Assembly (NCBI RefSeq): GCF_014230085.1
Contig: NZ_JACHVB010000025.1
Span: 62,001 to 126,000 of the forward strand
From: Ruficoccus amylovorans
Lineage (GTDB): Bacteria; Verrucomicrobiota; Verrucomicrobiia; Opitutales; Cerasicoccaceae
DNA length: 64,000 nucleotides
Direction of reading: 5' to 3'
Positions within the stretch are counted from its first letter, which is position 1, and every line of letters begins with the position of its first letter. Shown one piece after another: positions 14,701 to 47,992 of this stretch. Position numbers and translations under genes: made by a program. Below the pieces are notes generated by a model, which was not told the DNA's origin, made no database searches, and worked only from the letters and a program-made list of their open reading frames with translations.

Positions 14701-14757
14701 AGTTTTTGGGGAGAGCGCGAGAGGGTGTTTTTTTCAAAAAAACACCCTCTCGCATAA
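14701..14757 (-). terminator. bidirectional terminator; hairpin repeat copy 2
   Basis: GCGAGAGGGTG plus seven T (14717-14734) pairs perfectly with seven A plus CACCCTCTCGC (14736-14753), giving an 18-bp stem around one base. Reverse-complemented, the whole block matches 3037-3091, including the CTCTCCCCAAAAACT flank. It lies between the convergent cassette gene and yicC, so it can end transcription from both sides. Confidence 0.82.
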
Positions 14758-29401: not shown

Positions 29402-29548
29402 GGCGGAGCGAGAGGAGTTGGTAACAAAAAAATTCGTGTCTGATCCGCGCCATCCCTGGTCGCATCACCCTCTTTCACCAAGAGATGAGACGCGTTTTTT
29501 GTTCACGCGGCCGAATTTAGCCCTTTTCCGCGGGCACAAAAGTTGCTA

Positions 29549-29712
29549 GGGCCTGTTCAGGTAAACGGAAAAGATGGAAAAATGAGGGATTTTCCGAGCA
29601 CGTGCTGAGGTTTTGAGACGAGGCGAATCCAGATTCGTCGAGTCGAAAAACGTCGGCACCGGGCCGAAAAGACCCATTTTCTGCCACTTTGAGCGTTTAC
29701 CTGAACAGGCTC
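29549..29712. mobile_element. 164-bp MITE-like element with 19-bp terminal inverted repeats
   Basis: The left end GGGCCTGTTCAGGTAAACG (29549-29567) and the reverse complement of the right end GAGCCTGTTCAGGTAAACG (29694-29712) differ at one base. TA flanks both ends (29547-29548 and 29713-29714), consistent with a 2-bp target duplication. The interior contains an imperfect palindrome around CGAATCCAGATTCG (about 29623-29636) and AGCACGTGCT, and no coding frame of note. It lies 66 bases upstream of the PEP-CTERM gene. End sequence and TA duplication resemble non-autonomous IS5-group (IS427/IS1031-like) derivatives; that assignment is inference. Confidence 0.7.
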
Positions 29713-29778
29713 TAAATCCCGGCAATCAGCCTGTGCGATCACGGCCCGACTCTCACCTCACCATCAATCCCCGAACAC

Positions 29779-43891: not shown

Positions 43892-44974
43892 ATGAGCTAT
43901 AAACTCTTCATTCCCGGTCCGATCCAGGTGTCGGAAAAAACCTATCGCGCGATGACGACACCTGTCATCGGCCACCGAAGCAAGGACTTCGTGGAGCTGT
44001 TTCAGGCCATCCAGCCCTCCCTCCAGAAGCTCCTCTACACGCAGGACCCGGTTTACCTGAGCACCAGCAGCGCCTGGGGCGTGATGGAAGGCTCGCTGCG
44101 CAACGTGGTCAAAAAGAAGGTCCTCAACTGCTGCTCGGGCGCGTTCTCGGACAAGTGGTACGACGTTTCCCTCCGCTGCGGCCTCCAGGCCAAGGAGCTC
44201 AAATACGAATGGGGCACCCCCATCGACCCGGAGGACATCCGCAAGGAGCTTTCCACCGGGGAGTACGACGCCATCACCATCATTCACAACGAAACCTCGA
44301 CCGGCACCATGAACCCGCTGGAGGAAATCGCCGCCGTGCTGCGCGAGTTCCCCGAGGTCATTGCCATCGTGGACACGGTCAGTTCCTTCTCGGCCCTCAA
44401 GATCGATAAGGACGCCCTCGGCCTCGACATCATCCTGACCGGCTCGCAGAAGGCCCTCGCCCTGCCGCCCGGCCTCGCCCTGCTCTCCGTCTCGGAAAAG
44501 GCCCTCAAGCGCGCCGAGACCGTCGAAAACCGCGGCTACTACTTTGACTTCATCGAGTTCCAGAAGAACTACGAGAAGGGCATGACCCCGAGCACGCCGG
44601 TCATTCCGCTCATCTACGCGCTCAAGAGCAAGCTGGAAGACATCTTCGAGGAAGGGCTGGAAAACCGCTACGCCCGCCACCTGCGCCTCAACAACCTCGT
44701 GCGCGAGTGGGTCAGCAAAAACGGCATGGAACTGCTCCCGGCCCCCGAGTACGGCTCGGTCACGCTCAACTGTATCAAGAACCTGCGCGAAATCGACCTG
44801 CCCAAGCTCAACGAAGCCCTCAAGAGCCGCTACAACTGCGTCATCGACGGCGGCTACGGCAAGCTCAAGGGCAAAGCCTTCCGCATCTCCAACATGGGCG
44901 ACGAAACCGACGAGACCATGGCCGAGCTGCTCAGCGCGCTCGACAGCCTGCTCCCCGAATTCGCCGCCAAGTAG
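43892..44974 (+). CDS. class V aminotransferase (alanine-glyoxylate/serine-pyruvate type)
   Basis: This 360-residue PLP enzyme has the family opening FIPGPIQVSEKTYRAM (residues 6-21) and HRSKDFVEL. The PLP lysine is K187 in TGSQKALALPPG, with the aspartate in IVDTVSSFSA. It probably transfers the amino group between glyoxylate or pyruvate and alanine, serine or aspartate. A hairpin-like CCCC-GCGA-GGGG lies in the gap after panD. The insertion-like GxxExxY cassette begins 9 bases after its stop. Confidence 0.88.
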   Translation: MSYKLFIPGPIQVSEKTYRAMTTPVIGHRSKDFVELFQAIQPSLQKLLYTQDPVYLSTSSAWGVMEGSLRNVVKKKVLNCCSGAFSDKWYDVSLRCGLQAKELKYEWGTPIDPEDIRKELSTGEYDAITIIHNETSTGTMNPLEEIAAVLREFPEVIAIVDTVSSFSALKIDKDALGLDIILTGSQKALALPPGLALLSVSEKALKRAETVENRGYYFDFIEFQKNYEKGMTPSTPVIPLIYALKSKLEDIFEEGLENRYARHLRLNNLVREWVSKNGMELLPAPEYGSVTLNCIKNLREIDLPKLNEALKSRYNCVIDGGYGKLKGKAFRISNMGDETDETMAELLSALDSLLPEFAAK

Positions 44975-44982
44975 AGACATCC

Positions 44983-45452
44983 TTTTAACAGGAAGGACGG
45001 GAAGAGCCGGGAAGCATGCACGAAAAGTTTGAAAGAGCCGACAAGTTGACGAAAACCGTCATCGATTCGGCCTTTCGAGTGCATCGCCATTTCGGACCGG
45101 GGCTGCTTGAATCCATCTATCAGAAGGCCTTCTCGCGCGATTTGGCGCTGGAAGGCCTGATGGTTGAGGCGGAGCTGTGTATCCCCATCGAATATCGCGG
45201 AGAAGTGTTCAATGAACACATACGGGCAGATATTTTTGTTGAGCAATCCCTGCTGGTAGAACTGAAAGTAGTCGAAGCGGTTCGCCCCGAGCATATCGCT
45301 CAAACACTGAGCTACATGAAGCTTCTGAATGCTCCGGTCGGCCTGATTTTCAACTTCTACGAATCCGAATTTCGAAAAGGAATTCGCAGGTTAACCTTGA
45401 AAGGAGCGGATAAATAGCCCTTTCTCCGTTCTTCCCGACCTTCCTGTTAAAA
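44983..45452. mobile_element. 470-bp cassette carrying the GxxExxY gene, flanked by 23-bp inverted repeats
   Basis: TTTTAACAGGAAGG followed by ACGGGAAGA (44983-45005) is repeated in inverted form at 45430-45452, reading the same on the opposite strand except for one base (A/T at the 15th position). The repeats enclose only the GxxExxY gene. The left arm starts 8 bases after the aminotransferase stop, and the right arm ends 6 bases before the topoisomerase ATG. No target duplication is evident. The interior is more AT-rich than both neighbours. Confidence 0.65.
45016..45417 (+). CDS. GxxExxY family protein
   Basis: This 133-residue protein has the signature G29-L-L-E32-S-I-Y35 in GPGLLESIYQKAF. 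A PD-(D/E)XK-like strand pattern follows (RADIFVEQSLLVELKVVE with Asp, Glu and Lys), and the C-terminal FNFYESEFRKGIRRL is typical of this family. Members are widespread, patchily distributed and of unproven function; a nuclease-like fold has been suggested by sequence. GGGAAGAGCCGGGAAGC precedes the ATG. The gene lies inside a 23-bp inverted-repeat pair, between two unrelated housekeeping-type genes, which suggests that it moves as a unit. Confidence 0.85.
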   Translation: MHEKFERADKLTKTVIDSAFRVHRHFGPGLLESIYQKAFSRDLALEGLMVEAELCIPIEYRGEVFNEHIRADIFVEQSLLVELKVVEAVRPEHIAQTLSYMKLLNAPVGLIFNFYESEFRKGIRRLTLKGADK

Positions 45453-45457
45453 TTTTC

Positions 45458-47992
45458 ATGAAAACCCTTGTCATCGCGGAAAAACCCAGCGTCGCCGGCG
45501 ACCTCGCACGCGTCCTTGGCCGCATCCCCCGTAAAGGCGACCACTACGAAAACGACGAGTACATCATCGACTCGGCCGTTGGCCACCTTGTGGAGCTTAT
45601 CATGCCCGAGGACATCAGCCCGGACTACAAACGCTGGACGCTGAAGACCCTCCCCATCGTGCCGAAGACCTTCAAGCTCCGGCCCATCGACAAGACCAAG
45701 AAGAAGTTCCAGGAGCTGAAAAAGCACATCGCCCGCGACGACGTCGGCATGATCATCAACGCCTGTGACGCCGGACGCGAGGGCGAGCTGATCTTTACCT
45801 ACATCATGGAACTGGCCAAGGGCGACAAAAAGGACATCCGCCGCCTGTGGATGTCCTCCATGACCCCGCAGGCCATCCGCGACGCCTTCTCCAACCTGCG
45901 CTCCTCCGAGGAGATGCAGCCCCTGCAGGACGCCGCCCGCTCCCGCTCCGAGGCCGACTGGCTCATCGGCATCAACGGCACCCGCGGCGCCACCGTCCAG
46001 TTCGGTCGCCGCGGCGGCACCGCCGCCACCGTGGGCCGCGTCCAGACCCCCACCCTCACGCTCGTCTATGAACGCGAGTGCGAAATCCGCAATTTCAAGG
46101 CCCGCGACTACTGGCGCATCCTCGGCAACTTCAACATCACCGCCGGCGCCTACGACGGGGTTTACCAGAAGCCTGACTTCAAGAAGGCCGACGACGAGCA
46201 CGACCGCGCCGACCGCCTCTGGGACAAGGAGCAGGCCGAGCGCATCCTGCTCGAAGCCCTCGCCGCCGGGCCCGAGGCCGCCGTCACCGAGGAGAAAAAG
46301 CGCACCCGTCAGGCTTCCCCGCGTCTTTACGACCTGACCACGCTCCAGCGCGAGGCCAACAGCCGCTTCGGCTTCCCCGCCGGGATGACGCTCAACATCG
46401 CCCAGGCCCTCTACGAGAAGCACAAGATGATCACCTACCCGCGTACCGACTCGCGGGCGCTTCCCGAGGACTACGGCCACACCGTGCGCGACACCCTGGC
46501 CAGCCTGCCCGAGCCCTACGCCATCCACGCCGAAAAGGTCCTGGCCAACGACTGGGTCGTCACCGGCAACAAGCGTATCTTTAATAACAAGCAGGTCAGC
46601 GATCACTTCGCCATCATCCCGACCAACACCTCCCCGAAAAAACTTCAGGAGCGCGAGCAGAAGATCTATGACATGATCACTCGGCGCTTCATGGCGGTGT
46701 TCTTCCCCCCGGCCGAGTACGACGTGACCACCCGCATGAGCGAGCTCGGCGGGCACGCCTTCAAGACCGAAGGCAAGGTCCTCGCCGTCGCCGGTTGGCT
46801 CGAAGCCTACGGCAAGGGCAGCGGCCAGGGCGGCGAAGACACCCTGCCGGCCCTTTCCCCCGAAGACGGTTCACCGGCCAAGGCCCGCCTCGCGCAGGCC
46901 GAACTCCAGGCCGACCAGACCCGCCCCCCGCCCCGCTACACGGAAGCCACTCTCCTGGCCGCCATGGAAGGCGCGGGCAAGTTCGTCGAGGACGAGGAAC
47001 TGCGCGAAGCCCTCAAGGAACGCGGCCTGGGCACTCCGGCCACCCGCGCCGCGACCATCGACCACCTGGTCAAGGAGCGCTACATCGAGCGTGAAGGCCG
47101 CGACCTGGCCCCGACCCACAAGGCCGAGGATCTGGTCAAATTCCTGCGCACCTTTAAGATCGACGCCCTCACCCGCCCCGAGCTTACCGGCGAGTGGGAG
47201 CACCGCCTCCGTCAGATCGAGGAGGGCACGCTCTCCCGCGATGAGTTCATGAAGGGCATCGCCTCCATGACCGAGGAGATGATCAACAACCTCAACGCCC
47301 CGCCCCCGGCCAAGGAGACGCACCTGATCTCCCCTCTGGACAAAACCCCCCTGCTCGAAGACCACCGCGCGTGGTTCTCGCAGGAGTCGGTTGATGTGCG
47401 TGGGCGCGCCATCCCGAAGGTTTCCGTCAACAAGGTCATCGGCAACCGCAAGCTCGACCCCGACGAGGTGGAAGTCCTCTTGGACAAGGGTGAGATCGGC
47501 CCGCTCGACGGCTTCAAGTCCCGCATGGGCAAAGCCTTTTCCGCCGTGCTCAAGCTGGCCGAAAAGGACAACGGCTCCCTCCGCGTAGAGCTGGACTTCG
47601 GCGACAACGGCAACGGCCCCGGCGACGAGGACATCGACCTGTCGCAGTTCCCCGTCGTGGGCACCTCCCCCGTGGACAACACTCCCGTGCACGAGACGCC
47701 CAACGCCTACATCTCCGAGGGCAAAGACGCCAAGGGTCGCGCCACCTTCCGCATGAGCCGCAACATGCTCGGCAAGGCTCTCCCCGCCGAGCAGATCAAA
47801 AAGCTCCTGACCAACCGCAAGACGGACCTCATCCAGGGCTTCCGCTCGAACCGCACCAAGCGCCTTTTCGACGCCTTCCTCATCCTCCAGGACGACGGCG
47901 GCATCAAGTTCGAGTTCCCGCCCCGCCCCGCCAAGAAAGCGGCGAAAAAAGCCGCCAAGGACGCCCCCTCGGAAGCCCCCAAGGAAAGCTGA
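45458..47992 (+). CDS. topB: type IA DNA topoisomerase (TopB-like)
   Basis: This 844-residue enzyme has an N-terminal Toprim domain: AEKPSVAGDLA at residues 7-17 and DAGREGELI. The active tyrosine is Tyr327 in MITYPRTDSR. In place of zinc fingers the C-terminus carries two related repeats ending in SRMGKAFSAVLKLAEKD and SNRTKRLFDAFLILQDD, followed by a basic Lys/Ala-rich tail (KKAAKKAAKDA). It would relax or decatenate DNA. The start ATG 45458 directly abuts the right inverted repeat of the GxxExxY cassette, so the native ribosome-binding site may have been altered. The HAD gene follows 3 bases after its stop. Confidence 0.88.
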   Translation: MKTLVIAEKPSVAGDLARVLGRIPRKGDHYENDEYIIDSAVGHLVELIMPEDISPDYKRWTLKTLPIVPKTFKLRPIDKTKKKFQELKKHIARDDVGMIINACDAGREGELIFTYIMELAKGDKKDIRRLWMSSMTPQAIRDAFSNLRSSEEMQPLQDAARSRSEADWLIGINGTRGATVQFGRRGGTAATVGRVQTPTLTLVYERECEIRNFKARDYWRILGNFNITAGAYDGVYQKPDFKKADDEHDRADRLWDKEQAERILLEALAAGPEAAVTEEKKRTRQASPRLYDLTTLQREANSRFGFPAGMTLNIAQALYEKHKMITYPRTDSRALPEDYGHTVRDTLASLPEPYAIHAEKVLANDWVVTGNKRIFNNKQVSDHFAIIPTNTSPKKLQEREQKIYDMITRRFMAVFFPPAEYDVTTRMSELGGHAFKTEGKVLAVAGWLEAYGKGSGQGGEDTLPALSPEDGSPAKARLAQAELQADQTRPPPRYTEATLLAAMEGAGKFVEDEELREALKERGLGTPATRAATIDHLVKERYIEREGRDLAPTHKAEDLVKFLRTFKIDALTRPELTGEWEHRLRQIEEGTLSRDEFMKGIASMTEEMINNLNAPPPAKETHLISPLDKTPLLEDHRAWFSQESVDVRGRAIPKVSVNKVIGNRKLDPDEVEVLLDKGEIGPLDGFKSRMGKAFSAVLKLAEKDNGSLRVELDFGDNGNGPGDEDIDLSQFPVVGTSPVDNTPVHETPNAYISEGKDAKGRATFRMSRNMLGKALPAEQIKKLLTNRKTDLIQGFRSNRTKRLFDAFLILQDDGGIKFEFPPRPAKKAAKKAAKDAPSEAPKES

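Follow-up and report, generated by a model that had tools for sequence, protein, structure and literature searches.

A single gene for a GxxExxY protein in Ruficoccus amylovorans is framed by an inverted repeat and lies between two genes to which it is unrelated, which raises the question of whether the gene and its repeats form a mobile unit. The original prediction was that the gene may move as a minimal cassette. The locus was examined within a window, namely a stretch of 64,000 nucleotides from one contig of the R. amylovorans genome (a 4.5-Mb draft of 64 contigs), and was then compared with loci in other genomes; G, C and L numbers denote genomes, contigs and loci.

The element in the window and its protein

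A scan of the 64-kb window for inverted repeats (arms within 900 nt, score of at least 18) identified three, with that around the GxxExxY gene obtaining the top score. Near-perfect repeats had been predicted here, and 22 of 23 bases were found to pair (44983-45005 with 45430-45452), with the arms reaching 31 nt at 87% match (44983-45013 and 45422-45452) around a spacer of 408 nt. The GxxExxY ORF was the sole gene between these arms, as had also been foreseen. The features of the locus are as follows, with the arms taken from the inverted-repeat scan and the units read from the sequence.

43892 to 44974, + strand: class-V aminotransferase gene, left neighbour and flank for the empty-site test
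44983 to 45013, + strand: 5' arm, three units
44989-44995, 44998-45004 and 45008-45014, + strand: units CAGGAAG, CGGGAAG and CGGGAAG of the 5' arm
45016 to 45417, + strand: GxxExxY gene (PF13366 / TIGR04256), predicted PD-(D/E)XK nuclease family, 133 aa
45422 to 45452, - strand: 3' arm
45440-45446, 45431-45437 and 45422-45428, - strand: units CAGGAAG, CGGGAAG and CGGAGAA of the 3' arm
45458 to 47992, + strand: DNA topoisomerase gene (Topoisom_bac, Toprim), right neighbour and flank for the empty-site test

The third unit of the 5' arm overshoots that arm by one base. The distance from the aminotransferase stop codon to the arm was 8 bases, in agreement with the original prediction, while that from the other arm to the topoisomerase ATG was measured as 5 bases rather than the 6 claimed. 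The AT-richer interior was borne out, with the GxxExxY gene having a GC content of 0.493 (neighbours 0.610 and 0.649) and a GC3 of 0.575 (neighbours 0.892 and 0.890).

The window also contains, at 29547-29714, an inverted repeat of 21 nt (20 of 21 bases pairing) with a 126-nt loop that is of a kind other than the unit type. A palindrome of GCGAGAGGGTGTTTTTT(T) with a loop of 1-2 nt, situated at 14717-14753, was found to recur elsewhere in the R. amylovorans genome (C35:191254, C35:234345, C12:75257, C12:285991, C12:342363 and C32:18369).

Searches of Pfam and NCBIfam matched the window protein to PF13366 (119.7 bits, cut-off 22, E 1.1e-34) and TIGR04256 (118.5 bits, cut-off 35, E 1.9e-34) and to no other family. 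Residues G, E, Y, D, K, Q and N were invariant in 22 of 22 aligned proteins, and these are presumably an E..D..(D/E)xK site together with a QxxxY motif. An AlphaFold model of the protein (pLDDT 94.8) had as its nearest PDB chain the structure of SSO0001 (Z 9.5), which we take to be a Cas4, with further matches to Hjc (1gef, Z 6.9) and Cas4 Pcal_0546 (Z 6.4); sequence identity across these three was 12-19%. Lambda exonuclease was present in the Foldseek list, whose best E-value was 0.0023, so the structural match is modest. By its modelled fold and the positions of its active-site residues, the protein is placed in the PD-(D/E)XK nuclease superfamily and is a predicted nuclease. Its likeness to Cas4, lambda exonuclease and Hjc lies in this predicted fold, and it differs from them in that it is 133 aa long and stands alone within an inverted-repeat element. 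Membership of a defence system was considered and set aside, a PADLOC search having returned no match for the window protein and weak Cas4 matches (E 0.0045 and 0.01) for one relative. Values of dN/dS were 0.06-0.20 for the 10 of 16 pairs in which they could be computed, the remaining 6 being saturated, which indicates purifying selection on the protein.

Arms around GxxExxY genes and their units

Seven PF13366 genes were identified in the R. amylovorans genome and all seven lie inside inverted arms (six of seven with a stricter repeat finder), the arms of the seventh copy (L003) being revealed with a shorter seed and those of L007 having the opposite sense. Among 54 related genomes, 29 were found to carry PF13366, with 146 matches altogether. 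From these matches 79 loci of the order were drawn, amounting to 78 distinct elements, with L001 and L004 yielding one and the same element (the other L001 element scored 19). The 5' flank of each locus was compared with the reverse complement of its 3' flank, a local score of at least 14 being the threshold, and flanks of different elements were paired as a cross control. By this test 69 of the 79 loci were armed, compared with 4 of 79 for cross-paired flanks and 0 of 79 for shuffled flanks.

A contig scan with one genome per species confirmed at least 586 relatives. The 80 best of them represent many phyla, including Acidobacteria, Bacteroidetes, Planctomycetes, Chloroflexi, Proteobacteria and methanogenic archaea. 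Arms at threshold were identified for 55 of these best 80 (cross-paired flanks, 6 of 80). Loci at which arms did not reach the threshold numbered 10 of 79 in the order and 25 of 80 in the other phyla. That arms of different elements match at threshold in so few pairings (these 4 of 79 and 6 of 80) sets the elements apart from a classical IS or MITE.

Phages and plasmids were both considered as the usual vehicle of these genes and rejected, with just 5 confirmed loci in one IMG/VR scan and just 8 of 72,556 plasmid records, each at the sensitivity of the scan used. On the viral contigs L252, L253 and L251 (IMG/VR), GxxExxY genes were observed in long, nearly perfect inverted repeats of a different, AT-rich tandem type with the letters ACTTAAAATT and AAGAAAATT.

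Each arm was found to consist of about three tandem units of 7 nt, typically CNCNNA[G/T/A], examples being CACAGAG, CGCAAAG, CACGAAT, CGCGGAT and CGCTTAA. In GxxExxY arms the starts of units lay 8, 9, 10 and 11 nt apart in 142, 160, 64 and 32 cases, respectively, within a search range of 8-11 nt only, and an alignment of gene-less hairpins showed that unit spacing varies between elements. At least two CNCNNAN units in at least one arm were present in 114 of the 139 elements with a local score of at least 12 (viral loci included). The window element has variant units, its CAGGAAG, CGGGAAG and CGGGAAG lying outside the CNCNNAN expression, and it was left out of the unit statistics and of the tree of 113 proteins described below.

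At the four variable positions of the unit, agreement was 0.85 between units of one element, whether in the same or the opposite arm, and 0.49 between units of different elements. When letters were placed on the 113-protein tree, each of the four positions showed fewer changes than all 300 shuffles, the difference being clearest for unit position 7 (7 changes compared with a shuffled mean of 21). The unit letters thus follow the protein tree, indicating that arms and gene are inherited together. The original prediction had proposed a search for other cassettes with the same ends; a unit pattern is indeed common to the cassettes, but the letters of their arms mostly differ, so that most cassettes would be overlooked in a search for the identical repeat. 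Because arm letters vary between elements, the comparison of arm with arm and the unit pattern served as the main tests.

An RNA hairpin on the gene strand was considered as the cause of arm identity and rejected, as mismatches between arms showed no excess of G-U (123) over A-C (139, p 0.35) on that strand. This absence of wobble bias gives no support for a role of RNA on the gene strand.

A parallel was found in genes for four-helix-bundle proteins (PF05635), which were identified in 26 of the 54 genomes. Arms were present at threshold for 18 of 30 PF05635 loci in the order compared with 0 of 30 across elements, with the contig-edge loci L314, L315 and L323 placed by contig coordinates. The units of these arms have a period of 7-8 nt and mostly other letters than those of GxxExxY arms; PF05635 loci L304 and L328 of G016 have CACAAAG arms, as in GxxExxY elements. 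Judged from sequence, two unrelated proteins, GxxExxY and the four-helix bundle, appear to use the same kind of ends.

Gene-less hairpins, duplication and empty sites

Many short-loop hairpins with units of the GxxExxY type were identified in 1.26 Mb of the R. amylovorans genome that was scanned, window included. Their distribution was uneven, C12 having many and the initial 200 kb of contig C35 none. The same scan yielded ten unit-armed repeats with gene-sized loops of 300-560 nt, of which seven hold GxxExxY, one a four-helix-bundle protein and two neither, one of the ten having been assigned by eye. The unit-armed repeat at C12:182911 has an ORF without a Pfam match, and that at C64:94955 shows no similarity to GxxExxY.

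For 19 gene-less hairpins (17 from this 1.26 Mb of the 4.5-Mb genome and two at pyrC), the arms of GxxExxY elements from their own genus were strictly the best match in 13 cases, and best or equal best in 16. The mean score was 22.3 with the own genus, 15.8 with other genera of the family, 13.4 with the order and 17.3 with other phyla. For several of the 19, the best match in the genus was an element of a congener and not of R. amylovorans itself.

A three-unit pattern, comprising only purine units that end in G and missing other unit types, was found in 26 of the 29 genomes that carry PF13366 and in 1 of the 25 that do not; a reversed control pattern was found in 0 of 54. The association was also present when genomes were restricted to those of 2.5 Mb or more with a completeness of at least 90% (24 of 27 with the gene, 0 of 9 without) and when each family was represented by a single genome (10 of 10 with, 1 of 18 without). 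Within genus g27, the gene occurs in G032 along with 6 pattern matches, and both are absent from G049. Three genomes carry a GxxExxY gene without the three-unit pattern, and G033, a genome of 0.9 Mb, has three forward pattern matches and no PF13366 gene, being the sole such case among the 25. Ten of the 26 positive genomes had at most two pattern matches for each GxxExxY gene, a number that its own arms could account for, so spread of the pattern outside those arms is not evident in these ten.

Other repeats were also observed in the R. amylovorans genome. A dispersed repeat of about 130 bp had well over 20 BLAST matches in the 1.2 Mb sampled, and at C12:346454-346657 it lies partly inside a unit hairpin. 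Short palindromes of the TCAGGGATTACGGCTTTCAGT kind were noted at C12:32955, C12:174754, C12:203441, C12:209149, C12:209506, C64:86076 and C64:152190, and longer inverted repeats beginning with CTAGTGTG at C12:209045, C64:84854 and C25:968.

A gene-less element of about 230 nt was found on either side of a gene that, by its sequence, we take to be pyrC in three congeneric genomes, G001, G002 and R. amylovorans (L276; L274, L275, L277, L278). Compared whole, these elements are 63-69% identical between genomes, with the two copies within a genome being 92% (G002), 85% (G001) and 59% (R. amylovorans) identical. The downstream copy of R. amylovorans has CACAGAG in six of six units, the others being of the CGCAAAG type, and the loop of the downstream copy is flipped in orientation between G001 and G002. 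Template switching between inverted repeats has been described as homogenising arms and inverting the spacer (PMC8604942, in excerpt). The pattern at pyrC would fit such switching between the arms, and replacement by a sister copy may be an alternative at this locus.

A duplication was identified on contig C92 of G016, where two GxxExxY elements separated by about 2.3 kb share 95.5% identity over 465 bp and have unrelated flanks. This identity takes in the arms, the gene and 11 and 4 extra bases, with no similarity reported beyond. A search with the G016 element gave 68 match rows in G016, compared with 1 in R. amylovorans, 1 in G004 and 0 in G040; the 68 rows are mostly of arms alone, and some of them represent both strands or both arms of one place. 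Among 26 loci from this search, 8 rows (6 distinct) coincided with a scan hairpin, and the flanks look unrelated. In G002, the loop of one hairpin was found to contain a second. When a handful of copies were read by eye, no target-site duplication was seen. The 13.9-kb contig at L264 (G016:C92) is crowded with hairpins and has GGCACAAAG in long tandem arrays, two GxxExxY elements and, within CACAAAG arms, a four-helix-bundle gene; by eye, the ORFs upstream of both GxxExxY elements read into the element and share a short end tail.

At the window site, the class-V aminotransferase gene was present in 31 of 36 genomes searched, and 26 of the 30 aminotransferase loci taken also have the topoisomerase gene adjacent. 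A GxxExxY gene lies between both flanking genes at 4 of these 26 (R. amylovorans, G004, G007 and G009), and the other 22 carry none, being the empty sites that had been proposed as a check. The element is absent from the site in 6 of 10 genomes of the family and at all 16 loci outside it. The four proteins that share the site group as a single clade in a quick tree (SH-aLRT 99), which indicates one old insertion. The window copy is an old insertion that has been inherited with its site within the family, with no recent jump. The nearest tree relatives of the window protein are L059 and L121; L059 lies at a site without the aminotransferase and topoisomerase neighbours, and its arms, like those of the window element, start with AACAG.

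The idea of a minimal mobile cassette is therefore supported for the family by its recurrence, the empty sites, the G016 duplication and the matching gene-less hairpins, but it did not hold as recent movement of the window copy, an old insertion found at the same site in three other genomes. Two results had been named beforehand as counting against the cassette, namely the same gene in relatives without repeats, and repeats that occur once with no empty site in any relative; neither occurred.

Explanations and related systems

We lean towards the reading that these loci are hairpin-ended, single-gene mobile elements with a Cas4/Hjc-like PD-(D/E)XK nuclease, accompanied by non-autonomous hairpin derivatives. 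The gene and its two unit-built arms would travel together as a minimal element, and gene-less hairpins with matching units would be non-autonomous derivatives scattered between genes. The nuclease would recognise the units of its own arms, perhaps on fold-back single-stranded DNA at the replication fork, and by cutting would set off the copying of the segment that the hairpins delimit into a site between genes. An action of the nuclease on the repeats, which the original prediction had also considered, is plausible. Template switching between the arms would keep them alike, with letters drifting jointly within elements and apart between them. We infer a nuclease that acts as the mobility enzyme, together with its substrate and the homogenising process; that it recognises the units and drives the copying would account most economically both for the link between gene and dispersed units and for the co-inheritance of letters.

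A bolder version, put forward tentatively and with some doubt, is that GxxExxY is a pan-prokaryotic mobility enzyme and that arm letters are a code read by the cognate nuclease, rewritable in place (as would have happened at pyrC), with many specificities per genome and with ends adopted by unrelated proteins. The code would reside in the variable letters of the 7-nt unit, of which an element has about six copies.

Proof that the element is moved by the nuclease would make it categorically new. A nuclease of the Cas4/Hjc type would be unexpected as the only enzyme of a mobile element. Were the widespread GxxExxY and four-helix-bundle families the genes of hairpin-ended mobile elements, a large set of bacterial and archaeal genes and intergenic hairpins would gain a common explanation, and the role of both families could be tested directly. 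The element-specific unit letters would also offer many natural pairs of enzyme and target from which a recognition code could be learned.

It is rather unlikely that host processes such as template switching, slippage and recombination at forks spread the hairpins, with GxxExxY being a passenger or a host nuclease that processes them. Such an account would suit the STRR hairpins of 7-bp repeats, which are described without a known gene in the excerpted source (PMC2670836), and the concerted arm letters and inverted pyrC loops are as template switching predicts (PMC8604942, in excerpt). GxxExxY genes can also be few where pattern matches are many, G016 having 3 such genes and 532 matches, partly in tandem arrays. 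However, occurrence of the pattern in one of the 25 genomes without the gene, the tracking of the protein tree by unit letters and the duplication of a whole gene-and-arms unit with sharp ends in G016 argue against such an account.

A less probable explanation is that the arms are mainly terminators or regulatory stems at gene ends, used by GxxExxY as a stable resident. Read by eye, the window site has an ordinary-looking terminator in two congeners, gene-less hairpins of other unit letters in three family members and a hairpin of a different type in one (the hairpins being those of G003, G005, G006 and G008). The RNA of the window element also folds far better than shuffled sequences (z -7.30), as is expected of any long inverted repeat. 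On the other hand, a terminator needs neither arms spaced by the length of a gene nor tandem units, the arms recur around one gene family in unrelated phyla, and mismatches between arms show no preference for G-U. It is highly improbable that the elements are intervening sequences at the RNA level, excised by RNase III like those of 23S rRNA with the gene in the loop: PF05635, named after the 23S rRNA intervening sequences, does lie in comparable arms, but the elements read sit between protein genes, the window element included (its protein being of PF13366), and their arms lack wobble asymmetry.

No description of hairpin-ended GxxExxY elements was found among open-licence PMC papers. The hairpin-ended element and its gene-less hairpins point to a little-described kind of minimal mobile element in bacteria and archaea. 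Autonomous transposons with MITEs have terminal inverted repeats around a gene and short, internally different derivatives. The GxxExxY system resembles them in the inverted arms around the gene of full-length copies and in its gene-less derivatives, and differs in being without a gene for a DDE-type transposase and in having ends that are not sequence-conserved across the family; unlike classical transposon ends, its unit letters differ widely between elements.

The likeness to the REPIN/RAYT (TnpA-REP) system (PMC3116915, PMC8266576, both in excerpt) lies in a single gene framed by inverted palindromes, in a low-copy gene with higher-copy hairpins, and in dispersed gene-less hairpins that match the repeats flanking the gene, which are present in the GxxExxY system also. 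However, the REPIN/RAYT gene is a Y1 (HUH) transposase and that considered here encodes a predicted PD-(D/E)XK nuclease, so the GxxExxY system is not a member; its arms are, in addition, built of short units in tandem with element-specific letters. The excerpted account of REPIN-RAYT (PMC3733652) also describes a tetranucleotide tag, such as GTAG, beside the palindrome.

The STRR hairpins of filamentous cyanobacteria, which are likewise intergenic and built of short tandem repeats, appear to be the nearest described gene-less form, going by the excerpted source (PMC2670836). They differ in having 7-bp repeats and, in that description, no linked gene, whereas GxxExxY units start 8-11 nt apart and enclose a nuclease gene. 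The PF05635 elements, with their 7-8 nt period, are nearer to STRR than GxxExxY arms are. Compared with the 23S rRNA intervening sequences (PF05635), the GxxExxY elements share inverted arms of tandem units and differ in encoding an unrelated protein family. PF05635 genes in inverted arms of tandem units were observed at L008 (G000:C12:290762-291253) and at L303-L331, with GTTTGAGA units at L008, and gene-less hairpins with the GTTTGAGA unit occur elsewhere, for example at C12:348883-349013.
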